The notes under the pieces were generated by a model. That model was not told the origin of the DNA. It did no database searches and saw only the letters and a program-made list of their open reading frames with translations. Shown in pieces: positions 107 to 24,999 of a stretch of 64,000 nucleotides of DNA (position 1 is its first letter; each line of letters begins with the position of its first letter). This stretch comes from Rudaea cellulosilytica DSM 22992 (GTDB lineage Bacteria > Pseudomonadota > Gammaproteobacteria > Xanthomonadales > Rhodanobacteraceae), in assembly GCF_000378125.1 (NCBI RefSeq), contig NZ_KB899241.1, positions 2,083,652-2,147,651 on the forward strand, in the 5' to 3' direction. The translations under genes were made by a program, and so were the position numbers.

Positions 107-1051
107 CTATTCCCACGGCGTATAGTGTGTCGTGACCCGTCCGGTGAGCTCGTCCAACGTGTATGAGATCGCTTCTGGTCGCACGATCGGACAAATCTGC
201 GGTGCCAGTTCCAACAAAGTGCGTTTGCCTTCAAATGCCTGCGCTGGCCATCCCCCCTCAAACTTCGCTGTCAGCGCCTGCCACAACAGCGAGACATAGG
301 ACACGCCATCACCATCCTCCAGTTCAAGCGAGGAGCAGAGCAGGCCAATGAGATGGCCACCTTCGTCGAAAACGGGTCCGCCGCTCATTCCTCCCCATGA
401 GGGGCAGTCGACCTCAAGAACGGGCCACGGCAACATCGCTTTGTCGCGACCTTGTGGATACCGCTCCTTCACAACGCCGGCGGACACCAGGAGCATCGCA
501 TCGACGCCATAGCCACGCTCACCATTGTTCATTGACCGTGTCGCTGAGTTCGCCCTGAACCCAACGATCTGCAGACGATCGCCAATCTTTGGTAGTCGGG
601 TCGAGACGATTGCCTGTCGAAAAGTCCGTTCCGGCGGCATCGCAGAGTTCAACTCAAGTCCAAGGATCACAATATCCACGTCCGTCAAGATCGTCATCTT
701 CTTGACGGTCCAGACGTTCATTCCGCTTTTTGCGATGCCAATGCACATGGCGTGCCTCTCGCCCTTCATCAGTCGATCAAGGTGCGACTTGATCACGTGT
801 TTTGCTGTCAGAGCAATTCCGGGTGCAACGATGATAGCTGAGCCTTCGACGTTGTGTTCGTCGGCATCTGCGAAGTGGAACGACAGAACCGCACCATCGA
901 AGGCGTCAATGTTCTCCATGACGACTGTTGCGTTCTTAGGCAACAGAGTTACGCTGATCGGCTGAAATCCGAGCGTGTCGCCCTCCTTGGGATTCGCGGC
1001 TGGGTCATTGACTACTCGCCCAACTACCTGCTTCTTGGCCTGTTCGTTCAT
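107..1051 (-). CDS. trypsin-like serine protease (S1 fold)
   Basis: The 314-residue protein carries the three landmarks of a chymotrypsin-fold protease in the right order: TAKH with His85, TDVDIVIL with Asp126 and GMSGGP with Ser223. No convincing signal peptide is visible at the N-terminus (it begins with a polar, charged stretch), so a cytoplasmic location is likely. Proteases of this kind without export signals are often accessory genes, sometimes in defence or island contexts; that link is inference here. Its start lies back to back with the truncated S9 gene on the other strand, whose upstream reading frame runs antisense into this gene. Substrate unknown. Confidence 0.85.
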   Translation of the reverse strand: MNEQAKKQVVGRVVNDPAANPKEGDTLGFQPISVTLLPKNATVVMENIDAFDGAVLSFHFADADEHNVEGSAIIVAPGIALTAKHVIKSHLDRLMKGERHAMCIGIAKSGMNVWTVKKMTILTDVDIVILGLELNSAMPPERTFRQAIVSTRLPKIGDRLQIVGFRANSATRSMNNGERGYGVDAMLLVSAGVVKERYPQGRDKAMLPWPVLEVDCPSWGGMSGGPVFDEGGHLIGLLCSSLELEDGDGVSYVSLLWQALTAKFEGGWPAQAFEGKRTLLELAPQICPIVRPEAISYTLDELTGRVTTHYTPWE

Positions 1052-1145
1052 TAGTCTTCACGTCGCTACGAGGGTGCTAGCGGTTTCGAGCTGCGTCCTC
1101 GCAGTCTACGCCTTGTTCGCCCTGCCCAGGGACTCAACAAAACCA

Positions 1146-3191
1146 ATGGAAGAGGCGATCTATGAATTCCATCTAAAGTTGTTCTTCGACATCGATTCAT
1201 CCACCAACCACATTCCCAACGAAATTCTTTCGAAGGATTTTACCGGCGATCCCGACGATCAAATCGCATCGCCCTTCGGCAAAGTGGTGTTTCTTGCGGA
1301 CAACCGCACGCTTGCCTATTTAGGACGAGACGGCGATGAAACGCAGGTTTACACGGTCGATACGGTCAGCAAGAAGGTAAACCAACTCACGCATCACCCG
1401 TCACTTGTTCGCTCATTCGTGGTCGATCCTGACGGGAGTCTGCGCGCATTCGCCGCAGTCGCCGTCCCCGAGAAGAATCAAAGAAAGTCGCGACTGGAAG
1501 GTGACGGCGTTTTCCTCTGGGACAGCAAGCTTTTTCCCTTGCAGTTCGGCTCCTTCTCGCCCATGCCGTTGCTGTGGCAGACGGAAGGGCATCAGATACG
1601 ACAATATTTTTTGAACACTGCAGACGGGCCGAAGCTGTTCTTCGACTCGCGGCAGAGCAAGCCGGCAGAGGCGGTTGACCTTAGCGATCGAAAAGTCGCC
1701 ACATCCGGCGGCACCGAGTCCTGGGAGGACGAAGCGATGCTGCGCGGTTCGTCGACGCTTGCTGAAAATCCCAAGGACAAATCCCTCGTCATGTTTCCGT
1801 ATGCACTGACGAATCATCCGATGCATCCGGAGCGTTACGCGTACTACAACCAACCACTTAACAAAAATGCATTCATACGTCGTCTCGCGGCTCCGTACGG
1901 ACTGGTGAACCCCAATACGGGGAAGGTAGAGGTATTGATCGACGCACCGCACCCGGTCTCCGAACGATACGAAGGTGGAGATGCGTTGTGGGGCCCCGAC
2001 GGCAAATCGGTGCTTATCTACACCTTGTTGCCCGATGCACCGGCCGATCCACCGAAATGGGTGGAAGTCGACATCGCTACGCGCAAGGCGACGCCACTGG
2101 GATTGCCTAAGGACTGGCACCCGATCGCGTGGGCCGCAGATGGCAAGTCGCTGATACTCAGCGGCAAGGATGGCAAGTTCGGCAATGTGCCGCGTACTTC
2201 GAGTGGGTGGGGGAAATTCGTGGAGACGGGCGCGGCCAAGGGTTTCAACAAAGACTGGCCGGTGGCCACGAATGGGCAGAAGCTGGTTGGTGTGCGCGAC
2301 GCGAGTTTGAGTCCGCCGGAGCTTGCAACGTACGAATTGAACTCGGGGAAAGTCGAGGACCTCAGCAATTTCAATCCGCAGCTGCACCAACGCAAATACG
2401 GTTCCGTGGAACTGTGGCATTGGCCGAGCACGAGCCAGAAGGATGCAGCAGGCTTCCTGATCAAGCCGGTGGGCTACAAGTCCGGTACGCGCTATCCGCT
2501 CGTCGTGCTACTCGACGACAACACCATGGGGCGTGTAGGCGAGCCCTACCTGCTCGACGCATCATGGCAGTTGAGCGGTCACGCAATCCAGATGCTCGCC
2601 GCCCAGGGGTACGTGGTGCTGTATCCCCGTGAACCGATTCTACGCGATGTTGTAGAAACCGATGCAGAAGGCAAACGCGTGCGCGAGTACCTCGAGAGCG
2701 CGGTTGCCGAGCTCGATAAGGAAGGGCTTATCGATCCCAAACGCGTGGGCCTGTCGGGTTGGAGCCGCGCGGGCTACTACACCGACTACATGTTGATCCA
2801 TTCCTCGATCAACTTTGCTGCGGCGTCCGCGATCGACGGTGGTGGCGTCGAATACAACGACGGCATGCGGGCCTTCAGCGACGACGAGCTGAAGCATATC
2901 CACACGCCAAAGTTGCTCGAGGCGCATGGCTTGACCTCGCTTGTCTGGCTGGCCGGTATGGCCGATCGCATGACCTCGCTCGGCAAGCCGAATGACATTC
3001 TCTACTTCGCCACTGCGTCACATTCGACCACGCGACCCCTGCACCGCTTGCGCTCTCTCGGCACCCATCTGGATTGGTGGAATTTCTGGCTGAAGGGCCA
3101 GGAGGATCCTGATCCCGCCAAGGCTGACCAGTACACGCACTGGCGCAAGCTGCGCGAGACACAAAAAAGTGCCGGCAAGTTGCCTGGTTGA
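1146..3191 (+). CDS. AtxE2-type S9 isopeptidase homologue, 5'-truncated
   Basis: The predicted protein (681 residues from this ATG) aligns along its length with the intact paralogue at 8026-10272, but similarity begins only near residue 1. The roughly 90 N-terminal residues of the paralogue, including the signal peptide and the conserved DAIEMTRI segment, are absent. The frame stays open upstream to 975, but that part is unrelated sequence antisense to the protease gene. The C-terminal hydrolase domain keeps GWSRAG (Ser540 as nucleophile) and ASHSTTRP (His626). A canonical acidic triad residue is not evident. The C-terminal DPDPAKADQY segment is typical of the lasso-peptide isopeptidase (AtxE2) family. 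Without a signal peptide and part of the propeller it is probably non-functional or mislocalised. Confidence 0.75.
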   Translation: MEEAIYEFHLKLFFDIDSSTNHIPNEILSKDFTGDPDDQIASPFGKVVFLADNRTLAYLGRDGDETQVYTVDTVSKKVNQLTHHPSLVRSFVVDPDGSLRAFAAVAVPEKNQRKSRLEGDGVFLWDSKLFPLQFGSFSPMPLLWQTEGHQIRQYFLNTADGPKLFFDSRQSKPAEAVDLSDRKVATSGGTESWEDEAMLRGSSTLAENPKDKSLVMFPYALTNHPMHPERYAYYNQPLNKNAFIRRLAAPYGLVNPNTGKVEVLIDAPHPVSERYEGGDALWGPDGKSVLIYTLLPDAPADPPKWVEVDIATRKATPLGLPKDWHPIAWAADGKSLILSGKDGKFGNVPRTSSGWGKFVETGAAKGFNKDWPVATNGQKLVGVRDASLSPPELATYELNSGKVEDLSNFNPQLHQRKYGSVELWHWPSTSQKDAAGFLIKPVGYKSGTRYPLVVLLDDNTMGRVGEPYLLDASWQLSGHAIQMLAAQGYVVLYPREPILRDVVETDAEGKRVREYLESAVAELDKEGLIDPKRVGLSGWSRAGYYTDYMLIHSSINFAAASAIDGGGVEYNDGMRAFSDDELKHIHTPKLLEAHGLTSLVWLAGMADRMTSLGKPNDILYFATASHSTTRPLHRLRSLGTHLDWWNFWLKGQEDPDPAKADQYTHWRKLRETQKSAGKLPG

Positions 3192-3914: not shown

Positions 3915-4682
3915 ATGCCCGGTTCTGGCACCGTCGTCGCTGGCGAATTGCCTAGCAAGTTCCCACTCTTGCAGCAAGGCAATTCGACGCCGCCGCGGCA
4001 ATTGATTCAGCTCGCCAAAGTCATCGACTGGCTCGATAACCTTGAGGCAACGGCGCGTGTGCGTGGGAATCGCGCCGCAGTGGTGCGCGCAAAGCGCGAC
4101 CGATCCTTCGTTCTATTGGGGTTCTGGTGCGGGCTGCGCTCCCAGGAGTTGATCCAACTTCGGGTGGAACATATCAGTATCGCGCCCGGCGCCGGCATGA
4201 CTTGCTTTCTGGCGTCGCGCGAAGCAAGGGGCTTGGATGAGGCGGTCCATTGGCTGCCTTCGCTGACGCCTTGGTGTCCGATTGCATCGACTCTTGCATG
4301 GAAGAACGCGGCGAGGTTGACGCAAGGACCGCTGTACCGTGCGGTGAACTATCGAAACGTTGTTTCGGAAGCGGCTTGGGGTCCGTCAAATGTTTTCCGC
4401 TCGTTGCGGCGCATTCTTACCCGCGCTGGATTGCGAGCTCCGAACGATTTCACCGGGCGTTCTCTGCGTAGGGGATTCTCCAGCTGGGCCGAGAGTGACG
4501 GCTGGGATGTGAAAGCACTGATGGAATATGTGCGAGTGGGGAACGAGCATTTGACGATGCTTAGCGACGCCGACGACCACTGCGATCGTCGAAATCGTCT
4601 CGAATCCATCCCTTCTGCAAGTGCTTCACCATTTCCCAAGCAATTTCGAACGAGGCAACGCGTGCATCAGAGGGCATGTTGA
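3915..4682 (+). CDS. tyrosine recombinase/integrase, probably inactive
   Basis: The protein resembles the catalytic domain of tyrosine recombinases. RDRSFVLLGFWCGLRSQELI contains the first catalytic Arg and the following Glu, and SLRRGFSSWAESDGWD with VKALMEYV is the second box with Arg. Two features argue against activity. The usual box-II His before SLRR is Arg (GRSLRR), and where the family normally reads roughly MRYLDADDPF with the nucleophilic Tyr, this protein reads MLSDADDH with no Tyr. The tail after it is unrelated basic sequence. The start is placed at the ATG at 3915; a TTG at 3822 keeps the frame open. It is the main sign of past site-specific insertion at the left of the window. 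Confidence 0.75.
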   Translation: MPGSGTVVAGELPSKFPLLQQGNSTPPRQLIQLAKVIDWLDNLEATARVRGNRAAVVRAKRDRSFVLLGFWCGLRSQELIQLRVEHISIAPGAGMTCFLASREARGLDEAVHWLPSLTPWCPIASTLAWKNAARLTQGPLYRAVNYRNVVSEAAWGPSNVFRSLRRILTRAGLRAPNDFTGRSLRRGFSSWAESDGWDVKALMEYVRVGNEHLTMLSDADDHCDRRNRLESIPSASASPFPKQFRTRQRVHQRAC

Positions 4683-5288: not shown

Positions 5289-7844
5289 ATGAAGACGGCT
5301 CAACATTGGTGCATGGTCGGCATTTTCTCCCTGGCTGCGGCAGTGACGCCGGGCAAGACGTTCGCGCAACCGACATCAACGAAGGGAAACACAGCAACCA
5401 AGCGTGCCTATACGGTTGACGACGCCCTGAATCTTGAGCAGATCGGCATGTATTTCGGCGGTCCGTTCTCCTTTGCGCCTGACGGAAACAAGCTTGCCTT
5501 CACGCGCGTGCGAACGAAGAGCACGTTGGCGAACCTCAAGTGGGAGTACCTGTGGGGCAACGCCGGCGGCGATGTATGGGTGCAGGCTGGGCAGGGCGGT
5601 ACCGCATCGAATATCACTAACGGCGTTAGCGATGGATCGGGTTGGTGGTCGCCGCAGTGGTCCCCGGACGGAAACAAGCTAGCGATGTTGTCTACGCGCG
5701 GCGGAAACGTTCGGATCTGGCTGTGGGATCAGAGTTCTGGACAACCGCGGTTACTCTCTGCGCGCGGCGTCGACTTCACCGATCCGCACCTACGTCCCTT
5801 TCTCTGGCTCGACGGCCAACACCTACTCTATTCCGCACTGCCTGAAGGGGAGCAGCCGTTCAGCATGCGTGTCGAACTCGACACGCCCACGATTGCTTCA
5901 CGAGAATGGCCCAAGGTCACAAAAGGCAAGGAGGCTACCGCCAGCGTACTCGATAGCGGCATGCCGATCGATCTCGCCAAGCGATCGCACGGCCAGCTTC
6001 GCCTGGTCGATCTGGCTGGCGGAGAAGAGCGTGTTCTCGTCGATGCCACGACCAGCGAGTGGAGTATCGCACCGAAGCACGATGTCGTCGCTTTTGCGCG
6101 ACAGACGAGCGTGTACGCGCCGAAGGCGAACGAACCCCTTCCGTTTGGAAACAGCGAAACCTACGGGCTGGGTCTTGCCACGCTCAACGGCAAAAATATC
6201 GAGTTGAAGGGCGATGTCAGCCCTGACATTTTCCGGGACTCGCTACGCTGGTCCCCGGATGGCGATCAATTGGCGTTCCTGGGCTATCCCGGCGGCGATC
6301 GACTAAAGCTTCCGGTGCTCTATCGCGTGGATATCGCGCAACGTACCGTAAGCGCACAAGCGCTCGGCGAGCTCGATGCCGCTCCGATCGTCCGCGAGAG
6401 CGCACAGCTCGAATGGACAGGTGATGGCGCCTTGCTTGTGCTCGCGGTAAAGCGGGTGGGCGATGCTAAACCTGACGTGCGTGCGCGGCGCGACTGGTGG
6501 TTGATTGGCAAGGATGGAAGCCGACGTTCTCTTACCGCACAGATGCCGGCAGCGCCTGGGGGGCTATGGGCCGAGCCGACCCATCGCTCGTTTGTCGGGC
6601 TAGCCAAAGGCAAGCTTTGGCGCGTCGATCCGGGTAGCGGCAAGGTCGATGACTTGACCGTGGCGTTCAAACCTGAGATCGCGCAGATCGCTTGGCCTGC
6701 GTATACCAACACGGGTGTAGAGGAATGGCCGCAGCGTGATCGCACGTACACGCAATTGATACTCGGTGTGCGCAATGGGGAGGCGATCGCGTCATATCGC
6801 ATCTCGCTCGTAAACGGGAAGATCGATCCGATCCCGGCGCCCGGTCCGAAAGCAGAATTGAAGATTTTCGAGCCCACCACCGAAACGGCGATCTTCTACC
6901 AAAGTGATCGAGATGGACTGTATCTGTGGCGCCGCAGCCTTAAAGTCGGCAAGACAGATGAACTGATTGCCGCCAACACGTACTTGCGGGAGATCGCAAG
7001 CGGACAGTTCAAGTCGATCGACTACACCAGCCTCGACGGCAAGCCACTCAAGGCATGGCTGTTGCTACCGCCCGACTATGTGGCCGGCAAGCGCTATCCA
7101 CTGTTGACCTGGGTCTATGCCGGTTCGGTCGCTGGACCCAAGCCATCGATCATTGCCGACATCGGTTTCGGCGGCAGTTTGAATATGCAGGTACCCGCGG
7201 CGCACGGGTACGCAGTGCTGATGCCGAGTATGCCGCTCAACCCCGAAGGCATGGTCGACGATCCGATGTTGCGTCTACCGAATGGCGTGTTGCCGGCCGT
7301 CGACAAAGTGGTCGAATTGGGTATTGCCGATCCCAAACGAGTGTTCCTCATGGGGCAAAGTTTCGGCGGCTTCTCGACCTACGGCTTGGTGACGCAGACC
7401 GACCGCTTCGCCGCTGCAGTTTCGTTGGCAGGGTTGTCCGATCTGATCAGCTTGTATGCGCAGTTCGATGCGCGCATGCGTTACCTCGATCATCCAGAGG
7501 AGCACGGCCTTTTCATGATGGCTCTGGCGGAGGCAGCGCAGACGCGCATGGGCGGTCCGCCGTGGAAGGACCTCGGACGCTACATCCGCAACAGTCCGAT
7601 CTTCCAAGTCGATCGCGTCAACACGCCGCTGATGATCATTCAGGGTGACGTCGACTACGTGGCGATCCAGCAAGGTGAGGAGTTCTTCAACTCCCTCTAC
7701 CGGCAGGGCAAGCGCGCGCGTTTCGTGCGCTATTGGGGCGAGGGTCACGTCCTCGAAAGTCCGGCGAACATCCGCGACATGTGGGAACGCATCTTCGGCT
7801 GGTTCGACGAATTCCCGCCGAAGGAAACAGTATCGGCAAAATAG
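5289..7844 (+). CDS. secreted S9 prolyl oligopeptidase-family peptidase
   Basis: An 851-residue exported peptidase. A signal peptide (about residues 1-28, ending near TFAQ) is followed by a long beta-propeller with repeated SPDG-like strands (FAPDGNKLAF, SPDGNKLAM, SPDGDQLAF). The C-terminal alpha/beta hydrolase domain has GQSFGG (Ser691), GDVDYV (Asp789) and GEGH (His820), a complete triad. The start is supported by an AAGGTG Shine-Dalgarno just upstream of the ATG. Members cut short peptides after Pro or Ala, or act as dipeptidyl/acylaminoacyl peptidases. It sits between two isopeptidase homologues and upstream of a sigma-FecR-receptor cassette, which suggests it trims peptides in the periplasm. 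Exact specificity cannot be read from sequence. Confidence 0.92.
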   Translation: MKTAQHWCMVGIFSLAAAVTPGKTFAQPTSTKGNTATKRAYTVDDALNLEQIGMYFGGPFSFAPDGNKLAFTRVRTKSTLANLKWEYLWGNAGGDVWVQAGQGGTASNITNGVSDGSGWWSPQWSPDGNKLAMLSTRGGNVRIWLWDQSSGQPRLLSARGVDFTDPHLRPFLWLDGQHLLYSALPEGEQPFSMRVELDTPTIASREWPKVTKGKEATASVLDSGMPIDLAKRSHGQLRLVDLAGGEERVLVDATTSEWSIAPKHDVVAFARQTSVYAPKANEPLPFGNSETYGLGLATLNGKNIELKGDVSPDIFRDSLRWSPDGDQLAFLGYPGGDRLKLPVLYRVDIAQRTVSAQALGELDAAPIVRESAQLEWTGDGALLVLAVKRVGDAKPDVRARRDWWLIGKDGSRRSLTAQMPAAPGGLWAEPTHRSFVGLAKGKLWRVDPGSGKVDDLTVAFKPEIAQIAWPAYTNTGVEEWPQRDRTYTQLILGVRNGEAIASYRISLVNGKIDPIPAPGPKAELKIFEPTTETAIFYQSDRDGLYLWRRSLKVGKTDELIAANTYLREIASGQFKSIDYTSLDGKPLKAWLLLPPDYVAGKRYPLLTWVYAGSVAGPKPSIIADIGFGGSLNMQVPAAHGYAVLMPSMPLNPEGMVDDPMLRLPNGVLPAVDKVVELGIADPKRVFLMGQSFGGFSTYGLVTQTDRFAAAVSLAGLSDLISLYAQFDARMRYLDHPEEHGLFMMALAEAAQTRMGGPPWKDLGRYIRNSPIFQVDRVNTPLMIIQGDVDYVAIQQGEEFFNSLYRQGKRARFVRYWGEGHVLESPANIRDMWERIFGWFDEFPPKETVSAK

Positions 7845-10550: not shown

Positions 10551-10618
10551 TTGTGGGGGTTGCGAATGGATGCAAGACTGGAATCCTTGCTACGCCCCAA
10601 TCGCAAGCCTTCGAGAAC

Positions 10619-11200
10619 ATGGCTGAAACGTACTCGTCAGGCGGTGAATTGACCCTTCAGGAACGGGATTTTCCGCGGGACGAGCGCCGCTACCCGCAGC
10701 AGGACTTCGATGCCTTCTTCCAAAGGCACCGCCCGTCGCTGATCGCATTCTTGCGCCGTCGCACGCCGACGGAAGCGGACGCGGAGGAGATTGCGCAGGA
10801 AAGCTATACGCGCCTACTCGGATCCGACTACAACGCACCACGGCCACCGGAAGTGTGGCGATCGCTCCTCTACCGCATCGCCGGAAATCTTGCGGTAAGT
10901 CAGCACCGCATGCGCCAGAGTCAGCACACGCAGAGCGGCTACAACCTCGAGGAAATGGAGTTCAGTGGCGATTCTCCCTCACAGGAACGCATGGTCTCGG
11001 CGCAACAGGAATTGGTTCTGGTGCGCATGGCACTCGCCGCGTTGTCGCCCAAGTGTCGGAAGGTCTTCATGCTGAGTCGGGCGCACCACAAGACGTATCC
11101 AGAGATCGCGCAGCTTTGCGAGATCTCCGTAAAAATGGTGGAGAAATACATGTCGCAGGCGCTGGGCGCCTTGCGTCGGGCGGTAGGGGACAGGGCATGA
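10619..11200 (+). CDS. ECF sigma factor, FecI-like
   Basis: 193 residues with sigma region 2 (DFDAFFQRHRPSLIAFLRRR, then EADAEEIAQESYTRLL) and region 4 (LSPKCRKVFMLSRAHHKTYPEIA with VKMVEKYMSQAL as the recognition helix). This is the FecI-type iron-starvation/cell-surface-signalling group. The ATG at 10619 is preferred; a GTG at 10553 would add 22 residues with no sigma homology. It overlaps the following fecR-like gene by four bases (ATGA), so the two are translationally coupled. It is expected to direct transcription of the receptor gene two genes downstream once the receptor signals. Confidence 0.92.
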   Translation: MAETYSSGGELTLQERDFPRDERRYPQQDFDAFFQRHRPSLIAFLRRRTPTEADAEEIAQESYTRLLGSDYNAPRPPEVWRSLLYRIAGNLAVSQHRMRQSQHTQSGYNLEEMEFSGDSPSQERMVSAQQELVLVRMALAALSPKCRKVFMLSRAHHKTYPEIAQLCEISVKMVEKYMSQALGALRRAVGDRA

Positions 11201-12213: not shown

Positions 12214-12231
12214 GGTGGCAAGACATCCCCG

Positions 12232-12238: not shown

Positions 12239-12286
12239 GGTCAGGCCAACGCCATCGCAGCAATCGCGCGCGATGCCACGCCAACC

Positions 12287-15091: not shown

Positions 15092-17512
15092 ATGTCGAAA
15101 GTCGAAAATAGAGGTTGGAGTCGGCCGGCTATCTTGGCCTTCTGCCTCGGTGCTTTGCTGAACGGAGCGGATGCGATCGCTGCCTCAGGGAAGACGGAAT
15201 CCACTCGTGCATATCCGTACGAGCTGGCGTTTCAGATGCGCGAGCTTCGTCGAAGCGATCTGTACACAGCATCGCCCGATGGAACTCGTGTCGCCGCAGT
15301 GGTGTTGATGCGGCCTGACGAACGCGAACAGTCCGTACGTTTCCTGGAGAACGGTTCGCCGATCGACGCACAAGGCGCGCACATACTGGTGTCCTCTGCG
15401 GGCGAGCGGCCAACGCCGGATCACGCGCCCATCTGTGGAGGCAAGGGCAATCAGTGGAGCCCTGTGTGGTCGCCCGATGGACGCCGTCTGGCATTTTACT
15501 CCGACATCGATGGCTCTCCTCGCGTATGGGTAATGGAGACCAACGGTGGCGCGTGCCGACGGGTGAGCGATGCCGTGGTTCGGACGAGTCTGTTTGCAGG
15601 CTATCAGGCTCATTGGTCCCCGGATGGGCATACGTTGTTCGTGCCGTTGCGCCCTGAGCAGGCGGGGGCGGTGCGTGACAGCGAGCGCTTGAGTACGGCT
15701 GAAAGCGACGCCCAGCACGACGCGAAGAAGCCTCCGGCGGTGTTCTATAGCGGAAGCGAGCAGCCCAAGGAGAGCAAGACAAACGGTGCAAAATCCGGCG
15801 ACGATCTCGCGTTCTTCCTTGCCCACTACAACTCGACGCTCGCTTCCATCGATGTGGAAAGCGGTGCTACAAAAGTCGTCGTGGATGCGCGCGAGGAACC
15901 GCGTCCCGCCACACTAGAAGTATCGCCGTCAGGCCATTGGCTGACACATACATCCGTGTCCCGACGCAAGGAAGAAATATCGACGGTCTATGTGAAGGAC
16001 CTTTCGTTCATTCCAGCCGTCGGAGGCAAGAGCCGACTTCTAGTCGGTGGCATGGTGTCGTCCGAAAGTCCTATCAACTACACCGAACTCGATTACCGTT
16101 GGCATCCCACGCAAGACCGCCTCGTCTATCTCAATGACGGTGCCGCATGGTCGGTGGACTTCACGGATGCTGGACCATCGACGCCGCGGCGGCTCGCGCC
16201 GGAATTGGGTAAAGTCGGTGGCGTGATTCTGTATTTTTCTCGCGACGGCAAAAGTCTGCTTGTCGGTTTGGACGCGAAGCAAGAAGGGCGCAACACGGTG
16301 CCAAAGAGCTTGGCGGTGATTCCGCTCGACGGTGGCAAAGCGTCGACCTACGCGCTGCCGGACACGATGCGGTGGCAGTTCCTCGATGTGGTTCGTGCCA
16401 ACGACGATGTTCTTTGGCAGCCGCGTGCGAACGAAATCTCTTTCCTCGAACGTGATCGCACGACGGCCGAAGAGACCGTGTTCAGCCTCGATCTGGTGAG
16501 CGGCAAGACGCGTGCGATGAATACCGGACTGCATCAACTGAATCATTTCGCCTCGGGCGGCGACCACAAGCAGTTATTTGCGATCTTCGAGGACATCGCG
16601 ACACCACCAGACGTTTATCGCTATTCCGCAGACCTGAGCAGCAAATCCCGCGTCACAATGGTGGAGCCGAGGGTCGAGGGCTTGCTGACGAGCGTGCCCA
16701 AAGTGCTTCAGGCGCGAGTTCCCATGTATGACGGTAGTCTCAAGACGGTGCGCACGACATTGCTTCTCCCACCCGGTGCGAAGCAGGGTGACAAGGTGCC
16801 CGCGATCGTCATGATCTATTCGGGTTCCGATCTTTCCACGCGGGCAACCTACTATGGCGGTGGCATGGGCAACACCGTGCCCAGCCAGATTTTCACCAGT
16901 CGTGGCTACGCCGTGCTGATGGCCGATGTGGAGCTGGCGCCCGAAGGCGAGCCCAGCTATCCGTTGCAGCACATGGTCGACATCTTGCTGCCGCAGGTGT
17001 ACGCGGCAGCAAATGAGGGCTATATCGACATCAATCGTTTGGCCGTGAGCGGCCAATCCTATGGTGGCTATAGCACCGCGTCGATTGCCAGTGTGACCAA
17101 CGTGTTCCGCGCAGCGATTCCGGTAAACGGTACGTATGACCTGGCGTCGTTCTACGGTGGTCTCGACAAGCAAGGCAACAGTCATTGGATTCGTTGGGCG
17201 GAGCAGGGCCAAGGCCGCATGGGACAGAGTCCCTGGGCTAATCTTCAGCGCTACATCGACAATTCGCCGTTCTACCGGATTGACCGCATCCATACTCCGT
17301 TGCTGATTGTGTCTGGTGGGGCTGACGAAACATGCCCGACCGATGGCGCTCGATTTTTCTTCGTTGGCCTACGACGGCTGGAGCGCCCAGCAGAACTGTT
17401 GATTTATCCAGGCGAAGGACATGTAATCAGCGAATGGTCGGTGGGACATGCGGCAGATGTGAGCCGGCGGATGGTGGAATTTCTTGGCAAACATTTGGAT
17501 AAATCTGAGTAA
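15092..17512 (+). CDS. secreted S9 family peptidase
   Basis: 806 residues, preceded by AGGAG at good spacing. A signal peptide ends near DAIAAS, followed by a WD-like propeller with SPDG strands (TASPDGTRVAAV, SPDGRRLAFYSD, SPDGHTLFV). The hydrolase domain has GQSYGGY (Ser656), GGADETC (Asp745) and GEGHVIS (His777), so the catalytic triad looks complete, as in dipeptidyl/acylaminoacyl peptidases. It follows the receptor by about 145 bases in the same direction and is likely co-transcribed with it, which points to processing of the receptor's ligand. Confidence 0.92.
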   Translation: MSKVENRGWSRPAILAFCLGALLNGADAIAASGKTESTRAYPYELAFQMRELRRSDLYTASPDGTRVAAVVLMRPDEREQSVRFLENGSPIDAQGAHILVSSAGERPTPDHAPICGGKGNQWSPVWSPDGRRLAFYSDIDGSPRVWVMETNGGACRRVSDAVVRTSLFAGYQAHWSPDGHTLFVPLRPEQAGAVRDSERLSTAESDAQHDAKKPPAVFYSGSEQPKESKTNGAKSGDDLAFFLAHYNSTLASIDVESGATKVVVDAREEPRPATLEVSPSGHWLTHTSVSRRKEEISTVYVKDLSFIPAVGGKSRLLVGGMVSSESPINYTELDYRWHPTQDRLVYLNDGAAWSVDFTDAGPSTPRRLAPELGKVGGVILYFSRDGKSLLVGLDAKQEGRNTVPKSLAVIPLDGGKASTYALPDTMRWQFLDVVRANDDVLWQPRANEISFLERDRTTAEETVFSLDLVSGKTRAMNTGLHQLNHFASGGDHKQLFAIFEDIATPPDVYRYSADLSSKSRVTMVEPRVEGLLTSVPKVLQARVPMYDGSLKTVRTTLLLPPGAKQGDKVPAIVMIYSGSDLSTRATYYGGGMGNTVPSQIFTSRGYAVLMADVELAPEGEPSYPLQHMVDILLPQVYAAANEGYIDINRLAVSGQSYGGYSTASIASVTNVFRAAIPVNGTYDLASFYGGLDKQGNSHWIRWAEQGQGRMGQSPWANLQRYIDNSPFYRIDRIHTPLLIVSGGADETCPTDGARFFFVGLRRLERPAELLIYPGEGHVISEWSVGHAADVSRRMVEFLGKHLDKSE

Positions 17513-17856: not shown

Positions 17857-18432
17857 ATGAACGAAGCCCTCGACGTGTGGTTTGCGAGCGAAATCCTCGT
17901 GCACGAGGCGTCGCTCGTTCGCTATTTAGCGCGCGTGTGGCCGCACCGCGACGAAATCCACGACCTGCGCCAGGAGGTCTACGTCAAAGTCTATGAGGCC
18001 TCGACGAAGGCGCGGCCGAAGTCGCCAAAGTCGTTCCTGTTCGCTTCCGCGCGACACCTGATCACGGATCGGCTACGGCGCAGCCGCGTCGTCTCGATCG
18101 AAGCCGCGGGGGATTTGGAGGCATTCAACGTCTTGATAGACGAGATCTCTCCTGAAAAGGAAACAGGTGCTAGGCAGGAACTGAAACGCTTGGCGGAGGC
18201 GTTCGACCGTTTGCCGAATAGATGCCGTGAAGTGGTTTGGCTACGCCGCGTGCAAGATTTTTCGCAAAAGGAAGTGGCGGCGCATATGGGTATCAGCGAA
18301 AAGACGGTTGAAAAGCAGCTCGCCAAAGGCGCGCGGTTGATCGCCGACTACGTGTACGGTCGCACGTCATCGAGAATACATCCAAGAGAAACTGGTACAG
18401 AAGAAAGAAGTGAGGAGAACGTGCATGGATAG
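17857..18432 (+). CDS. ECF sigma factor, FecI-like (second cassette)
   Basis: About 191 residues with region 2 (VRYLARVWPHRDEIHDLRQEVYVKVYE) and region 4 (LPNRCREVVWLRRVQDFSQKEVAAHMGISEKTVEKQLAKGARL). The ATG at 17857 is preferred over a GTG three codons upstream. The stop overlaps the next gene by eight bases. An A/T-rich block, 17785-17817, precedes it. It belongs to the same cell-surface-signalling type as the 10619 gene but is clearly a diverged paralogue. Confidence 0.92.
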   Translation: MNEALDVWFASEILVHEASLVRYLARVWPHRDEIHDLRQEVYVKVYEASTKARPKSPKSFLFASARHLITDRLRRSRVVSIEAAGDLEAFNVLIDEISPEKETGARQELKRLAEAFDRLPNRCREVVWLRRVQDFSQKEVAAHMGISEKTVEKQLAKGARLIADYVYGRTSSRIHPRETGTEERSEENVHG

Positions 18433-19540
18433 CAGCACCAAGATCGAACGCACCGCGGCTGGATGGTTAGCTCGGCGCGATGCGAACACATGGTCCGACG
18501 AGGATCAGGCGGAACTGAATGTGTGGCTGGAAACGGCGATTGCGCATCGCGTGGCCTACATTCGCCTGCAATCCGCATGGCAGCAAGCGGGTCGACTCAA
18601 GGCGTTGGGCGCTGGCGTCCCACGTGGCCAGATTCCGTCAAAGGGGCAATGGACGCTGTCGCCTTTTTTTAGTCACGGCGAGGCCGTGGAAGAATCATCG
18701 CCGCCGACCGTATCCGGTCAGGCAGAAAGTCTTTCCAACGGAGTCGTGTCGGGCTGGCACCGGCATGGCGCCAAGCAGCTCCGTCGACCGAGGTCAAAAC
18801 GCCGCGGTTGGCTAAAGATGGGGTTGCTGGCGGTATGTTTGCTATTGGCGGTTCCATTGGGGCTCGGATTGCGTCGGTATACCGCCGTACAAAGCACCGC
18901 TTATTCGACTCCGATGGGCGGAACGCAAACAGTATCGCTCGACGACGGCTCCCAAGCGGTATTGAGCAGCGACAGCAGTGTCGCAGCCGCGATGTCGAGG
19001 AGCGAACGGCATATCGACTTGCAGCAGGGCGAGGCGTTCTTTGAAGTAGCGAAAGATGCTCAGCGCCCCTTCGTCGTCGCCGTCGGCGATCGGCGCGTCA
19101 TCGCGGTCGGTACGCGCTTTTCCGTACGCCGGAACGCTGACGGTCTGCGTGTGGTCGTCACTGAAGGCATTGTGCGGCTCGAGACTGGCGCAGATATGCC
19201 TGCGCAGCAGAGAGTCATGCGCTTGCCAGCCGGAAGCGTCGCTTTGGTCGGAAAAAACGGCGTTTCCATCCAATCGGTTCCGGTCGACAAGGCCGAGGAA
19301 TATTTGAGTTGGCGCAGTGGCTTCGTCGTGTTCCGCGATACTTCGCTGGCCGACGCGGTGGCAGAATTCAATCGCTACAGCGCGCAAAAGCTGGTTGTCA
19401 ACGATGCGCAAACTGCAGCAATTCGCGTGGGCGGCCATTTCCGTTTGTCGAACACAGAAGCTTTCGTGCGATTGCTGGAACAAGGGTTCTCGATTCGCCC
19501 TGAACGCCTGGGCGACAGGATCGTGCTGCACAGCGAATGA
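18425..19540 (+). CDS. FecR-family anti-sigma/signal transducer (second cassette)
   Basis: 371 residues. The N-terminal DUF4880-like part (AAGWLARRDANTWSDEDQAELNVWLE, then AHRVAYIRLQSAW) is followed by one membrane helix near residues 125-145 (LKMGLLAVCLLLAVPLGLGL). The periplasmic FecR domain includes VSLDDGSQAVLSSDS, EAFFEVAKDAQRPFVVAVGD and VIAVGTRFSV. The C-terminal part (LADAVAEFNRYSAQKLVV) matches the STN-like C-terminal domain of FecR proteins. It is coupled to the sigma gene by an eight-base overlap. Confidence 0.92.
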   Translation: MDSSTKIERTAAGWLARRDANTWSDEDQAELNVWLETAIAHRVAYIRLQSAWQQAGRLKALGAGVPRGQIPSKGQWTLSPFFSHGEAVEESSPPTVSGQAESLSNGVVSGWHRHGAKQLRRPRSKRRGWLKMGLLAVCLLLAVPLGLGLRRYTAVQSTAYSTPMGGTQTVSLDDGSQAVLSSDSSVAAAMSRSERHIDLQQGEAFFEVAKDAQRPFVVAVGDRRVIAVGTRFSVRRNADGLRVVVTEGIVRLETGADMPAQQRVMRLPAGSVALVGKNGVSIQSVPVDKAEEYLSWRSGFVVFRDTSLADAVAEFNRYSAQKLVVNDAQTAAIRVGGHFRLSNTEAFVRLLEQGFSIRPERLGDRIVLHSE

Positions 19541-19577
19541 TCGGTGGGTCAAGTCATTTCGATGAAGTTCGCGGGTG

Positions 19578-19633: not shown

Positions 19634-19687
19634 GATATCGCAACGCAACCGCAATCCCGCGGTCGCATCGGGGAGAGATATCGAAAC

Positions 19688-22603
19688 ATGAGCAGATTCC
19701 GAATTCTGCATCGCGCGCTACTTGCCGCTGCTTGTCTTGCGTGCACCGCCGCCTTCGCACAGGCACGCGACCAGAAGCCCATTAACATTCCTCCCGGCGA
19801 TCTCGTCGGCGCCCTCGACGCCCTGGCCAAACAGTCCGGCGCCGAGTTCATCTATCGCGCAGATCAGTTGACAGGACTGCACACGGAAGGTGCACAAGGC
19901 AACTTATCCGCCGACGAAGCGCTTTCGCGATTGCTGCGGGGAAGCGGCTTCGTTATCAAGCACGACGCATCTGGCGCAATTCTGATCGTCAAGGGAGATC
20001 AACCCGCGAAACCGTCGAAGCCCGCCAAACGCGACGACGCGTCGGCCCGTTCAAACGAAGAAGCGCCTGCGGAACTCGAAAAGGTGACGGTGACAGGTTC
20101 GCGGCTTCCTCAAGTATCGATCCAGGGGCCGCAGGAAGTGAAGCTTTATACGCGGGCGAACATTACGGAAAGCGGCCAGAAGACCGTCATGGATTTTCTG
20201 AACACGCTGCCGACCGTATCGACCGTCGTCAGCGAGGCCGGTTTCGATACGGTTGGCGGCGCAGGAGCGGTGCGCTTGCGCGGTTTGCCGATTGGATCGA
20301 CTTTGGTGCTGTTGGATGGGCGCGCGGTCGAGGGAGCGGGATCGGGCCAATCTCACGGCAATCCTTTCGACGTCAACAACATCCCTATTTCTGCAGTGGA
20401 ACGTATCGAAGTGGTGCCGGAAGCGGCTTCCGCCGTCTACGGTAGTGACGCCATCGGTGGCGTCGTCAACATCATTTTGCGCAAGGACCTTGATGGCGGC
20501 GAAGTGAATGTGACCTCCGGCTCTCCGACGGACGGGGTCTATCGAGATACGACGGTCAATGCCGTGTGGGGCAAGAAATTCGAACGCGGCGATTTGTCGT
20601 TTGTCGGCAGCTATCAAGTTCGCGGCGCATTGCTCAACACCGACCGCGAACTCACAGCCAATCAAGACTATCGCCGTTATGGCGGCTTGGATGAACGCTC
20701 GACCAGCTGTACCCCGGGCAACGTCTACTCGGCCGACGGAAAAAATCTCCCCGGGTTATCGTCTTCGTTTGCCGGGATTCCCTACAGCACAAACGGTGCG
20801 CTGACGCCCTCGGATTTTCTTTCGACGAGCGGAGTGCTGAACAAATGCAGCAGCGGCTCCTTCGGCGGCACGATCGTCCCGTCGACGCATCGCGCCAGTC
20901 TTATGGGGTATGGGAACTACGCGATCACCGAAACGACACAAGCTTTTTTCCAGGCCGCGTATACGCAGATCGAACAGGCTCCTTATCTTTCGCCGCGAAG
21001 CGTTTCCCAGATCGCCGTGCCGGCGACGAATCCATTCAATCCCTTCGGCGTGCCGGTGCGGGTGACCTATCGCTTCGCCGACGAAGGACGCTTCGGTTCG
21101 GCGATCGGCACGGAGATGTTCTCGCGTATCGTCGGTGGATTCAAAGGCACGTGGGGAGATCGTTGGGATTGGGAAGTGGCCGTTTGGCAGTCCGGCGACC
21201 ATATGAACAGCAAGGATGAAAATACGATCAACACGGCCGCGCTGGTCGGCGCGTTGGCCAATACTGATCCCACGCAGTCCATCAATCTGTTTTCTTTGGG
21301 GATTCCCGCATCGCAGACAATATTGGACAAAATCCTCTACGACGCGCCCGTCTATTCGTCGAGCAAGCTGCAGGTCGTAAACGGCTTCGTGCGCGGCAGT
21401 CTCTTCGATTTGCCCGCAGGCCCCGTAAACGTCGTGCTTGGTGGTGAATACGACCACACTCGGCAAAGCCTTTATGCGCCTGGTGAAGGGTTGCCTACGG
21501 TCGATACTTTTTCACGAAGCGCGCGCTCGATTTTCGGTGAGATGCACATACCCGTTCTCGCTGCAGCGGATGGCGAGGTGGGAGAAAAGCTAGCCCTTAC
21601 ATTCGCTGGGCGCTACGACGACTACAACGACATAGGCAGCCGCTTCACGCCGCAAGGCGGTGTTGAGTTTCGGCCGACCGAAACGTTGCTGCTGCGAGCG
21701 ACCTATGCTGAGGCATTCAAGGCGCCTGATCTGCGCGCGATCTACGCCAGCCCGATTGTCTACAGCGGCATTGAAGTTGCGCCCGATCCACTCAGAGGAG
21801 GCGAACTCTATCCCACGACACTCAAATACGGCGGCGATCTCACACTGAAGCCGCAGACCGGAAACTCGCGGTCGATAGGATTCGTTTGGTCGAGCAAGGC
21901 GATAGAGAATTTGCAGATTGGCTTGACCAATTTCCGGGTTACGCAGAACGATCGAATCATTCAGCCAAACGCGCTGACTATGATTGCGAATCCCGCTGCG
22001 TTCCCGGGCCGGGTCGTGCGGCAAGCACCGACTGCCGACGACGTTGCCAAAGGTTATGCTGGGTTGATCACGCTGATCGATTCCTCCTACACCAACTACG
22101 GCGAACTGATCGTCGAAGGATTCGATCTCGATGTCGATTACAAATTCGACACGGCGATAGGAACATTCAGCCCAGCTCTCAGCGTGACCGAAGTTTACAA
22201 GTACGACGCGGCCGTCGCTCCCAACGCACCGTTGCAGGACAGATTGGGCTACGCCAGCGCCGATGCCTTTGCGACGCGCTGGAAAGGCACGGTCTCGCTC
22301 GCCTACAACACCGGGGAGTGGACGGCGCGCGTGGCCGGGCGCTACATCAGCGGTTACATCGACTACGACCTGGTGCGCCACCTCGGCGACTACTGGCTGT
22401 TCGATGCTTCGCTGCACTATGCCCTCGGCAAGCGTTTCTTCGCCGAAGACTCGCTGATGAAAAACGCTTACGTGGAAGCGAGCGTCGTCAACGCCTTCAA
22501 CAAGGCACCGCAATTCACCGACTACTACGGCACCGGCTACGACCCGCGCATGGCGGATATCCGCGGCCGCTTCGTTTCCATGACGCTCGGCACGCGCTGG
22601 TAA
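19688..22603 (+). CDS. TonB-dependent receptor with STN domain (second cassette)
   Basis: 971 residues from an ATG preceded by GGGAGAG. A signal peptide ends near AAFAQA. The STN domain is at about residues 33-102 (INIPPGDLVGALDALAKQSG to AILIVKGD). The plug starts at VTVTGSRLP and includes VRLRGLPIGSTLVLLDGR and VERIEVVPEAASAVYGSDA, and the barrel ends FVSMTLGTRW. The same domain order as the 12287 receptor, but with a different plug and barrel, implies a different ligand. It is flanked by its sigma/FecR pair and an isopeptidase homologue 41 bases downstream, an arrangement known from lasso-peptide loci. Confidence 0.94.
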   Translation: MSRFRILHRALLAAACLACTAAFAQARDQKPINIPPGDLVGALDALAKQSGAEFIYRADQLTGLHTEGAQGNLSADEALSRLLRGSGFVIKHDASGAILIVKGDQPAKPSKPAKRDDASARSNEEAPAELEKVTVTGSRLPQVSIQGPQEVKLYTRANITESGQKTVMDFLNTLPTVSTVVSEAGFDTVGGAGAVRLRGLPIGSTLVLLDGRAVEGAGSGQSHGNPFDVNNIPISAVERIEVVPEAASAVYGSDAIGGVVNIILRKDLDGGEVNVTSGSPTDGVYRDTTVNAVWGKKFERGDLSFVGSYQVRGALLNTDRELTANQDYRRYGGLDERSTSCTPGNVYSADGKNLPGLSSSFAGIPYSTNGALTPSDFLSTSGVLNKCSSGSFGGTIVPSTHRASLMGYGNYAITETTQAFFQAAYTQIEQAPYLSPRSVSQIAVPATNPFNPFGVPVRVTYRFADEGRFGSAIGTEMFSRIVGGFKGTWGDRWDWEVAVWQSGDHMNSKDENTINTAALVGALANTDPTQSINLFSLGIPASQTILDKILYDAPVYSSSKLQVVNGFVRGSLFDLPAGPVNVVLGGEYDHTRQSLYAPGEGLPTVDTFSRSARSIFGEMHIPVLAAADGEVGEKLALTFAGRYDDYNDIGSRFTPQGGVEFRPTETLLLRATYAEAFKAPDLRAIYASPIVYSGIEVAPDPLRGGELYPTTLKYGGDLTLKPQTGNSRSIGFVWSSKAIENLQIGLTNFRVTQNDRIIQPNALTMIANPAAFPGRVVRQAPTADDVAKGYAGLITLIDSSYTNYGELIVEGFDLDVDYKFDTAIGTFSPALSVTEVYKYDAAVAPNAPLQDRLGYASADAFATRWKGTVSLAYNTGEWTARVAGRYISGYIDYDLVRHLGDYWLFDASLHYALGKRFFAEDSLMKNAYVEASVVNAFNKAPQFTDYYGTGYDPRMADIRGRFVSMTLGTRW

Positions 22604-22644
22604 CGACGTCCGACCGTTCAACCTGTTGCACCATTGGAGTTGTT

Positions 22645-24999
22645 ATGCGCTATTTCTCAATATTGCGCGCGGCCGTGTGCGTGCTTGTTTCGACCGGTTC
22701 CATGGCATTCGCCGCGCCAGAGAGGCGGTTCACCGTGCGCGATTCGATCGAGCTGTCGACGTTCGTGCGCGTGGGGTCGCAGTACATGCCTTCGTCGCGA
22801 GTTTCGTTTTCGCCTGACGGCGCGCATTTCGTCGCCGTCACGATGCGCGGAGACCTAAAAAGCGGCAAACGTGAAGCGACGATGTGGCTGTTCGATTGCG
22901 ATGGGGTCCGCGACTATCTAAGCCATCCCGCAGCAGCTTATTTCGATAAGGCCAAGCCGTTGGTTCGCTTCGCTAGCGCCTCGAACCACGAACCGCTCAA
23001 CGATTGGCGTTGGACCGAAGACTCGAAAAGCATTCTATTTCTCGGCGCGGACGACGACGGTGCAGAGCGTCTCTATCGCGTGGGCCTTGCCGGCGGAGAT
23101 CCGGTCGCGCTCAGTCGCGCCGACCAGGACGTGAATCGCTACGAAGAACGCAACGGCGCGATCGTCTACTTTGCCCATGCGCCCATTCGGGCAGAAGATC
23201 TGTATCAGGCCGGCGGCGCCTCGCTGCCGGATATGGAAGTTGCGACCGGTAAGAACATTCTCCCCTTGATTTTCCCCAATTGGATGGATGCGCAGTTTCG
23301 CGACGGCGAGGATGAGCTGTGGAAGATCGAAGGCGACAAGGCCGTTAGCGTGCTCGGACCTGATCGCAAGACGCCGGTGAAGCTTCGCGATTCGCGACTA
23401 ATTCTGGCGCCGAACGGACGCCAGGTCGTACTGACTCCGTCGGCCAAACATATCCCCAAATCTTGGGAGAAATACCAGCCGCTGATCGACTATCCGGGTT
23501 TTCGCATCGTCGCTGACACGCCGGAGACCGAGGGTGGCACGGATAGATATCGTCCGAAGCAGTATGCGTTGCTTGGACTGGACGATGGGAAAATGTCGCT
23601 ACTCGCCGATGCTCCGATCGAAATGACCGGCCTGTTCTATAGCCACGTTACAGCGCGATGGACAGCAGACAGTTCGCATATCGCACTTTCGGCGCTGTAT
23701 CCGAAGCCGAGTGCGTCCATGGAAGCGGCGAAAGCCGCATCGATGCCCTCCTGCACGCTCGCCGTGGTTGATACCCACGGCGGAGACTTCTCTTGCGTGC
23801 AGGTCGCGGCACCTGTCGATACGAACAAGAATCCCTATCCGGACCGCTTGCAGATGGTGGACTTGCAGTGGCGCAACCATGATCAGGAACTCGTCGCGAC
23901 CTATGTCACGCCGAACGCGCCCGATAAGAAAGTCATTAAGGCATTCTTTCGGCAAGGCAGCACGTGGGCGATGAAGGAAGAGCCCGCGCCGACCGAGGTG
24001 CTTGCCGTGAGCGTGCGCGAATCATTAGACGAGTCCCCTGTGCTGGTGGCGGGTTTGAATGGCGGTGCGTCACGGCCCTTGTTCGATCCCAATCCACAAC
24101 TGAAAAACATCGCCCTCGGCAAAGCCGCGTTCTACGAATGGCGCGATGCCAACGGCAACGCCTGGACAGGTGCGCTGGTGACGCCACCCGGCTTCTCCAA
24201 GAATCGCCGCTATCCTCTGGTGATCCAGACGCACGGGCTCGATCGCGCCAAATTCCTGGTCGACGGGCCCTCGGCGACAGGCTTTGCGGCACGCGCATTT
24301 TCCGCGAAGGACATCGTCGTGCTTCAGGTGCAGGAGATAAACAAAGAATCTGGTACACCGAAAGAATCTGAAATAGGTGGTGCCGCAGGTTACCGCGCCG
24401 CGATCAAACAGCTTGCCGAGGAAAGAATCGTCGATCCCGCGAAAGTCGGCATCATCACTTGGAGCCACTACGGCCCGCACGCGATGCAGGGACTGATCGA
24501 CGAACCTCATGCCTATGCCGCGGCCACGTGGGCCGAAGCGGCCTACAACAGCTACGGCGAATACCTCATCAATATCGACTACATGGGCAGCGCGCGCGAA
24601 AAAATGTTCCGCGCACAGTTCGGGGCGAAACCGTTCGGCGAAGGGCTGAAGCAGGCTGTCGAAAACTCGCCGGGATTTCACACCGACCGCGTCTGCACGC
24701 CGATACTGTTTCAGATGAACGGGCCGCCGTCGCTGATCTACGGTTGGGATGCGTACGCGGCGATTCGCGCGCAAAACAAGCCGATCGATCTGTTCTACAT
24801 CCGCAACGGCGACCACGTGCTGGTGAAGCCGCTGCAACGGCTCGCGGAGCAGGGCATGAACGTTGACTGGTACGACTATTGGCTCAACGGTCGAAAGGAT
24901 CCTGATGCCGGAAAGTCGGCGCAGTACAAGCGCTGGGACGCATTGAAAGCGTTGCCGCGTTGCGGTTCCGACGTCGCGGATTCGACCAAGAAGCCTTGA
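22645..24999 (+). CDS. AtxE2-type lasso peptide isopeptidase homologue (S9)
   Basis: 784 residues with a signal peptide ending near AFAAPE, then TVRDSIELSTFV and FSPDGAHFVAVTMRGDL, the family N-terminal hallmark. The C-terminal half has KPFGEGLKQAVENSPGF and ends with WYDYWLNGRKDPDAGKSAQY, both typical of AtxE2-like enzymes. The nucleophile motif reads TWSHYG (Ser607) with the first Gly replaced by Thr. His724 is in NGDHVLV. Asp702 in YGWDAY is the best acidic candidate. It follows the STN receptor by 41 bases in the same direction and is probably in its operon. A frame reading from 21886 overlaps the receptor and is rejected. Lasso-peptide isopeptide cleavage is inferred from the family, not shown. 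Confidence 0.82.
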   Translation: MRYFSILRAAVCVLVSTGSMAFAAPERRFTVRDSIELSTFVRVGSQYMPSSRVSFSPDGAHFVAVTMRGDLKSGKREATMWLFDCDGVRDYLSHPAAAYFDKAKPLVRFASASNHEPLNDWRWTEDSKSILFLGADDDGAERLYRVGLAGGDPVALSRADQDVNRYEERNGAIVYFAHAPIRAEDLYQAGGASLPDMEVATGKNILPLIFPNWMDAQFRDGEDELWKIEGDKAVSVLGPDRKTPVKLRDSRLILAPNGRQVVLTPSAKHIPKSWEKYQPLIDYPGFRIVADTPETEGGTDRYRPKQYALLGLDDGKMSLLADAPIEMTGLFYSHVTARWTADSSHIALSALYPKPSASMEAAKAASMPSCTLAVVDTHGGDFSCVQVAAPVDTNKNPYPDRLQMVDLQWRNHDQELVATYVTPNAPDKKVIKAFFRQGSTWAMKEEPAPTEVLAVSVRESLDESPVLVAGLNGGASRPLFDPNPQLKNIALGKAAFYEWRDANGNAWTGALVTPPGFSKNRRYPLVIQTHGLDRAKFLVDGPSATGFAARAFSAKDIVVLQVQEINKESGTPKESEIGGAAGYRAAIKQLAEERIVDPAKVGIITWSHYGPHAMQGLIDEPHAYAAATWAEAAYNSYGEYLINIDYMGSAREKMFRAQFGAKPFGEGLKQAVENSPGFHTDRVCTPILFQMNGPPSLIYGWDAYAAIRAQNKPIDLFYIRNGDHVLVKPLQRLAEQGMNVDWYDYWLNGRKDPDAGKSAQYKRWDALKALPRCGSDVADSTKKP

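Follow-up and report, generated by a model that had tools for sequence, protein, structure and literature searches.

Two cell-surface-signaling cassettes with divergent relatives of lasso peptide isopeptidases in Rudaea cellulosilytica, possibly for the use of lasso peptides made by other bacteria

What use could a bacterium that seems to make no lasso peptide have for relatives of the enzymes that open lasso peptides? The question is raised by a 64,000-nucleotide stretch of the genome of Rudaea cellulosilytica DSM 22992 (here called the window; positions 2083652 to 2147651 of a 4.34-Mb genome in 6 contigs, 99.99% complete), a member of the order Lysobacterales. The genes of the block at 975-24999 of the window all lie on the + strand, in the order IsoP1, an integrase remnant, the S9 peptidase S9A, IsoP2, Sig1-FecR1-TonB1, the S9 peptidase S9B, Sig2-FecR2-TonB2, and IsoP3. 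The original prediction, made from the sequence alone, had described three AtxE2-type lasso isopeptidases beside two FecI-FecR-TonB cassettes, with no lasso biosynthesis genes, and had proposed a scavenging or immunity system. With moderate confidence, we arrive at the reading that two adjacent, inducible cell-surface-signaling cassettes import and open lasso peptides of other bacteria.

Profile matches bear out the two cassettes, each of which consists of an extracytoplasmic function (ECF) sigma factor, a FecR protein, and an STN-bearing TonB-dependent receptor, in that order. Cassette 1 (10553-14947) comprises the FecI-like Sig1 (10553..11200), the anti-sigma/sigma regulator FecR1 with DUF4880 and FecR domains (11179..12213), and TonB1 with STN, Plug, and TonB-dependent receptor domains (12287..14947). 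Cassette 2 (∼17857-22603) comprises Sig2 (17857..18432, start approximate), FecR2 (18425..19540), and TonB2 with STN, Plug, and barrel domains (19688..22603, in an open frame from 19607). The genes of both cassettes are open and full-length.

To what kind of system do these receptors belong? We searched 250 genomes of the order with TonB1 (E ≤ 1e-120; three or four candidates were scored per genome, and further relatives may be missed). Besides its own genome, 13 others had matches. These are exactly the 13 genomes with a protein over the cut-off of NF033523, the NCBI model of the AtxE2 family, and in each of them a match adjoins such a protein's gene (Fisher test for the co-occurrence, 6e-22, own genome excluded and kinship among genomes ignored). 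Fourteen of the 16 foreign matches lie 129 to 2063 bp from a scored AtxE2 gene, the one at 2063 bp actually abutting an unscored AtxE2, and the remaining 2 belong to an island of orphan cassettes in Pseudoxanthomonas yeongjuensis. The closest relatives of TonB1 that we found are thus receptors beside canonical AtxE2, and this co-occurrence is our strongest evidence for a link to lasso peptides. In a tree of the receptors (rows longer than 1000 residues cut to their last 1000; the row isl_Pyeon_495k with one stop in its first six residues), TonB1 falls in one clade with cluster-linked and orphan receptors (six rows, 100/100; eight rows, 98/100). At the same threshold, TonB2 had matches only in the P. 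yeongjuensis island and in the genome G194, where the receptor (55%) adjoins an IsoP3 relative.

Are the peptidases beside these receptors lasso isopeptidases? On NF033523, whose cut-off is 400 bits, IsoP1 (1146..3191, in an open frame from 975) scores 135.8 bits, IsoP2 (8026..10272) 151.4 bits (E 4e-44), and IsoP3 (22645..24999, ∼40 bp 3′ of TonB2) 153.3 bits (E 1e-44), so that none reaches it. Canonical AtxE2 proteins score 611 to 688 bits in the order sample (13/250 genomes) and 476.8 bits in P. soli. Judged by this model, then, IsoP1-3 are relatives and not strict members of the AtxE2 family, and placement in that family was one of the tests that the original prediction had set itself. The family assignment in the original prediction holds as kinship for IsoP2 and IsoP3, whose best Protein Data Bank (PDB) matches by sequence are AtxE2 (5txc/5txe), and fails as membership. 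It fails further for IsoP1, for which an N-terminal hallmark had been claimed. IsoP1 is 53% identical to IsoP2 over IsoP2 residues 84-743, its homology begins at about residue 84, and the hallmark region (about the first 80 residues) is absent. No frameshift that would rescue this 5′-truncated gene was seen, the matches listed showing no N-terminal homology upstream in any frame, and it is probably a relic.

A tree of 29 rows (midpoint root; L098 left out because it duplicates L049, and L035_+6356 used without its first 295 residues) placed IsoP1-3, the proteins L034 and L036 introduced below, and four orphan relatives in one clade (100/98), sister to 11 canonical AtxE2 proteins (100/99). A further split (100/98) parts these 20 rows from S9A, S9B, S9C of P. 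yeongjuensis, and other S9 peptidases. L036 and S9C sit on long branches, and L036 joins IsoP3 at 90/80. For IsoP2 a structure was predicted from 8 rows (mean pLDDT 73.7, pTM 0.76); for IsoP3 the model was of low quality (mean pLDDT 61), and the fold search covers IsoP2 only. By E-value, its PDB ranks 1-8 were all AtxE2 or SpI-IsoP, with general S9 peptidases close behind. The tree split and the fold search by E-value both point to AtxE2, and not to general S9 peptidases, as the closer kin.

Do members of this sister clade occur beside lasso clusters? Scanning 84,980 species genomes by pattern for the IsoP1/IsoP2 group, we found at least six loci, of which two are distant (25% and 23%). In one of the six, from a metagenome-assembled genome (MAG) of Luteitalea (L034), an IsoP2 relative (46% identical, 165.1 bits on NF033523) lies convergent with a lasso cluster that holds a candidate precursor, picked by eye and matching no family, next to a cyclase, the leader peptidase B2, and a PqqD-type protein. 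In a gammaproteobacterial MAG (L036), a divergent relative (25%, 141.3 bits) adjoins a PF00733 protein and B2. We sought S9 relatives in 40 further B2 loci (39 from genomes without canonical AtxE2; 14/40 shorter than 15 kb; the reference L046 excluded), and only L098, from an AtxE2 genome, had a full-length isopeptidase relative, while L066 gave a weak S9A match. Divergent isopeptidases beside lasso clusters are thus rare, and we found only two, L034 and L036. Between the neighbors of TonB1's kin and these two proteins, the lasso connection drawn in the original prediction has gained in strength.

Could the divergent proteins be active? The serine and histidine of the catalytic triad are kept in every aligned row shown (Ser608 and His694 in IsoP2; Ser607 and His724 in IsoP3). 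A triad with its acid after strand beta-7 is not found in IsoP1-3, where the acid column reads G/G/G and a column after beta-6 reads D/D/E; we take the names beta-6 and beta-7 to follow the usual alpha/beta-hydrolase strand scheme. In 10/29 rows, the beta-7 acid column, the column before it, and the three columns after it are all without Asp or Glu: IsoP1-3, the relatives in G194, L034, L036, P. soli, and Rudaea, the P. yeongjuensis IsoP2 relative, and S9C. All 10 carry Asp or Glu in the single column after beta-6. Of the 19 other rows, 18 lack an acid there, and one, an S9 peptidase of the host, holds both acids. Every one of the nine rows of the IsoP clade shows this exchange, and canonical rows have Glu at the acid column in 10/11 cases (in P. 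soli L055 this column holds Ala, and a Glu follows two columns later). In the IsoP2 model, the proposed acid Asp632 directly follows the strand 627-631, next to a low-confidence segment (residues 634-639); the corresponding residue of IsoP3 would be Glu631. The alignment and the model suggest that the catalytic acid, ordinarily found after beta-7, has shifted in these proteins to a place after beta-6, and the tree allows at most two independent cases, the IsoP clade and S9C. S9C itself (L035 4986-7181) is an S9 peptidase in the IsoP2-type locus of P. yeongjuensis; it scores above IsoP1-3 on the AtxE2 model and shares their missing and shifted acid, yet stands outside their clade.

Several observations weigh against the lasso reading. 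IsoP1-3 fall far below the curated cut-off, in the same band as neighboring S9 peptidases (S9A, 98.5 bits; S9B, 129 bits; S9C, 178.4 bits), so that the NF033523 score alone does not mark an isopeptidase. In the fold search, TM-scores were no better for lasso isopeptidases (0.61-0.66) than for general S9 peptidases (up to 0.71, target length). With no Asp or Glu at the usual acid position, catalysis could be impaired, and other acids a few residues on, such as the Asp in the GWD stretch of IsoP3, are an alternative to a moved acid. For TonB2, the nearest relative is another orphan (G194), the cluster-linked receptors of L036 and L056 being only 34% and 32% identical; the IsoP3/TonB2 half of the system is less certain. 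Known isopeptidases are also highly specific for their cognate peptides, according to the review PMC9266682, and a scavenger would therefore need matching neighbors. The scores, the TM-scores, the loss of the beta-7 acid, and the presence of S9A and S9B as ordinary S9 peptidases would all suit a general peptide uptake system, in which the substrates of the S9 relatives would be ordinary peptides, or ring-bearing ones of another kind, and not lasso peptides. We regard this as rather improbable in view of the canonical AtxE2 genes beside TonB1's closest relatives, the two clade members adjoining lasso clusters, and the first ranks of lasso isopeptidases in the fold search by E-value.

Does the host make a lasso peptide of its own? 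Genome-wide searches for the B2 leader peptidase (PF13471 and NF033537) gave nothing over cut-off. Genome-wide, PF00733, which in a control found 6/6 cyclases of comparable lasso clusters, gave four matches: QueC, GuaA (on contig 2), and two large asparagine-synthase-type proteins. NF033535 is a poor detector of such cyclases, missing the clusters of G022 and G185, and was not used as evidence of absence. None of the four matches stood as a lasso cyclase. GuaA was identified as such, and the QueC match, ∼1 kb upstream of the window, lies beside apparent QueE and Tol-Pal genes and is no sign of a lasso cluster there. The two large proteins are fitted far better by other asparagine-synthase-type models (TIGR01536, 467 and 471 bits, over cut-off; the exopolysaccharide amidotransferase model TIGR03108, 516-529 bits, below its cut-off of 817) than by the lasso cyclase model (210-232 bits, cut-off 525), and they sit amid sugar-related genes of glycosyltransferase and methyltransferase types. 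The original prediction had named a complete lasso operon adjacent to the window as evidence that would overturn it. The 10 kb upstream read as Tol-Pal, QueE, and QueC genes plus a tRNA-Lys, and no lasso gene was recognized among the listed open reading frames; a small precursor was not searched for, there or genome-wide. Its statement that biosynthesis genes are missing thus extends, for B2 and the cyclase, from the window to the genome. Absence of B2 is common in the order (a match in 77/250 genomes, 72 of them over cut-off). Since the host itself seems to make no lasso peptide, the system would serve scavenging, eavesdropping, or detoxification.

Are such free-standing cassettes peculiar to this genome? 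B2 is likewise missing from the genomes of Rudaea (L033), G194 (L030), and G112 (L031, with an IsoP3 relative that seems to be interrupted). G111 (L058, C2, ∼439.7-446.2 kb) has no B2 match either, and there a canonical AtxE2, with 688 bits the top NF033523 score of the sample, follows its own Sig-FecR-TonB1-type receptor set. Producers carry them too. G159 (L103-L105, C16, ∼146-190 kb) has one B2 match and one lasso cluster, to which a TonB1-AtxE2 pair belongs, and beside that cluster are five extra Sig-FecR-STN TonB1-AtxE2 cassettes. P. yeongjuensis and P. soli have lasso clusters, but these lie at least 240 kb from the IsoP2-type locus, and in either genome one of them includes a canonical isopeptidase (651 and 476.8 bits, respectively). 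The P. yeongjuensis island (L099, L100, L029; 462-516 kb) holds about five sigma-FecR-receptor cassettes, four with peptidase matches and two with TonB1-type receptors, and the lasso cluster is far off at 261-268 kb.

Within the order, FecR was present in 14/14 cassettes not linked to a cluster (five in G159, two in the window, four in the P. yeongjuensis island, and one each in G111, G194, and Rudaea) versus 0/12 cluster-linked TonB1-AtxE2 pairs (L054, L105-L115; only FecR matches belonging to the pair were counted), in a comparison that ignores the kinship of genomes and of tandem cassettes. The count excludes the P. yeongjuensis receptor at 467 kb, with FecR and no peptidase match beside it, and P. 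soli L032, with FecR and from another order. Among the pairs, L112 has a sigma match but no FecR, and the sequence covered at L108 reaches just 1.2 kb beyond the receptor on its upstream side. STN was found in 3/12 cluster-linked receptors versus 12/14 others (none for Rudaea and the 495-kb island receptor). FecR is thus a mark of orphans in this Lysobacterales sample and not everywhere: the P. soli clusters L055 and L056, outside the order, carry sigma/FecR, which also speaks against our reading. In L056, the second P. soli cluster, a TonB2-like receptor, FecR, and sigma are convergent with C and B2, with no isopeptidase match in 19 kb.

These P. soli clusters, with sigma-FecR-receptor genes adjoining C and B2, bear on a second explanation, in which the window holds the remnant of a former producer whose isopeptidase-type lasso cluster lost precursor, B, and C while the uptake half stayed. 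The truncated IsoP1 and the phage-integrase-like remnant beside it (3915..4682; PF00589 28.6 bits, cut-off 27.1) would fit such a history. The order's cluster-linked pairs, however, have no FecR and a canonical AtxE2; both cassettes here are intact; and the arrangement is shared with loci lacking a cluster. P. soli has counterparts of Sig1-FecR1-TonB1-IsoP2-S9B in that order with no cluster beside them, and in P. yeongjuensis the order is Sig-FecR-receptor-S9C-S9A-IsoP2-S9B with a TonB2-like receptor, so that the window, which shares S9A, IsoP2, and S9B with it, shows a similar set rearranged. We therefore consider a decayed producer locus unlikely.

The same synteny bears on S9A (5289..7844), a prolyl-oligopeptidase-family peptidase outside the isopeptidase clade, and S9B (15092..17512, start approximate), the two further S9 peptidases that had been noted in the window and that matched as such. 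Among loci with an IsoP2-group member of at least 60% identity, the window included, S9B is present in 3/3 and S9A in 2/3, and the S9A orthologue of P. yeongjuensis (58.5% identical) lies beside the IsoP2 relative. Neither was found in the fetched stretches of the more distant Rudaea and Luteitalea loci. This conserved neighborhood supports a putative joint role with IsoP2, and the proposal that S9A and S9B finish the linearized peptide draws on synteny only.

How might the system work? Starting from the kinship of the receptors, we infer the lasso substrate, its cleavage, induction, and benefit as follows. A lasso peptide would bind the STN-bearing TonB1 (TonB2 by analogy), FecR would free the ECF sigma factor, and more receptor and peptidases would be made. 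TonB-driven import would carry the threaded peptide into the periplasm, where IsoP2 or IsoP3 would cut the isopeptide bond and open the ring, and S9A and S9B would trim the linear product; by eye, the starts of all four peptidases resemble signal peptides. The nonproducing host might gain by scavenging (a nutrient or bound cargo), by eavesdropping, or by detoxification, which cannot be told apart by sequence. Of the two functions originally proposed, scavenging, with sensing, remains the best reading, and immunity is inseparable from it on these data. As a separate explanation, immunity would mean that antibacterial lasso peptides come in by way of these receptors and that the cassettes degrade them. 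The predicted export of the enzymes and their linkage to receptors would agree with this, and several cassettes per genome, as in G159 and P. yeongjuensis, would suit several foreign peptides. Raised receptor production would, however, presumably increase the entry of a toxic peptide, and isopeptidase-type lasso peptides are mostly without antibacterial action according to PMC9266682. Pure detoxification seems to us quite improbable.

How does the locus compare with known systems? IsoP1-3 share with AtxE2 and SpI-IsoP (NF033523; PDB 5txc, 5txe, 5jrk, 5jrl) the propeller plus alpha/beta-hydrolase architecture, the serine and histidine, the C-terminal W-x(3)-W-L ... Q-Y-x(2)-W pattern, and an adjoining TonB-dependent receptor. 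They differ in score (136-153 versus 477-688 bits), in the acid after beta-6 instead of beta-7, and in that no lasso biosynthesis genes adjoin them and no lasso cluster was found in the genome. In the order's TonB1-AtxE2 pairs (for example, P. yeongjuensis L054), an isopeptidase likewise comes after the receptor, which shares 51-57% identity with TonB1; unlike the window, with its Sig-FecR-STN sets and its other isopeptidase clade, these pairs lie opposite C-B2, have no FecR, and lack an STN match in 9/12 cases. Sigma factor, FecR, and STN receptor recall FecI-FecR-FecA signaling, and the uptake of xenosiderophores, products made by others, offers an analogy, whereas the substrate here would be a lasso peptide and peptidases would replace iron-release proteins.

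Lasso loci of the astexin type also bring together isopeptidase, TonB receptor, and a sigma/anti-sigma pair but include precursor, B, and C, and such pairs are usual in isopeptidase clusters, according to PMC9266682. The company of isopeptidases, receptors, and sigma/FecR is already known from lasso clusters. In the portions of the open-license papers that we searched, we found no description of orphan or scavenging isopeptidases, free-standing cassettes, or an acid-shifted clade.

The surroundings of the cassettes add a few observations. A tRNA-Lys(TTT) lies just 5′ of the window (−222 to −147; L005 9778-9853), and GC content goes from 0.625-0.64 upstream to ∼0.53-0.60 over some 50 kb (window 1-50000). 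With the integrase remnant, a possible trace of the block's arrival, the region looks like a genomic island. Insertion at the tRNA was considered and set aside, since a duplicate of its 3′ end, sought in the window and the next 20 kb, was not found. A trypsin-like protease gene (107-1051, − strand; PF13365) overlaps the IsoP1 open frame and has no obvious partner. Downstream, 25292-47692 is a probable L-fucose use locus with three alpha-L-fucosidase-type proteins (25292-27151, −; 36257-38161, +; 41901-43508, +, weak), a sugar transporter, two short-chain dehydrogenases/reductases (SDRs), an enolase-type dehydratase, an altronate-dehydratase-type protein, an amidohydrolase, and a TonB receptor. 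Another receptor-hydrolase cassette lies at 52212-60276, where a further FecR and STN/TonB receptor (54803-58657) stand between two beta-lactamase-fold serine hydrolases (52212-53813, −; 58654-60276, +).

What would these cassettes mean beyond this genome? We put forward, tentatively, a class of FecI-FecR-STN-receptor-isopeptidase cassettes decoupled from synthesis and spreading among Lysobacterales and beyond, with which nonproducers, and producers such as the genome with five extra cassettes, may sense and use the lasso peptides of others, and which may have an isopeptidase subfamily of its own with the catalytic acid moved to a position after beta-6 from one after beta-7. For annotation, the low-scoring sister clade means that the present NF033523 model misses isopeptidase-like proteins beside lasso clusters (L034, L036). 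Why should a bacterium make a lasso peptide and also an enzyme that undoes it? The question is open, and the review PMC9266682 calls the function enigmatic and mentions the idea of a siderophore-like cargo. That cassettes occur as orphans where synthesis genes are lacking suggests a use for the receptor-isopeptidase half alone, as would be expected if these peptides were extracellular common goods or signals, and it renders the question of function testable in nonproducers.

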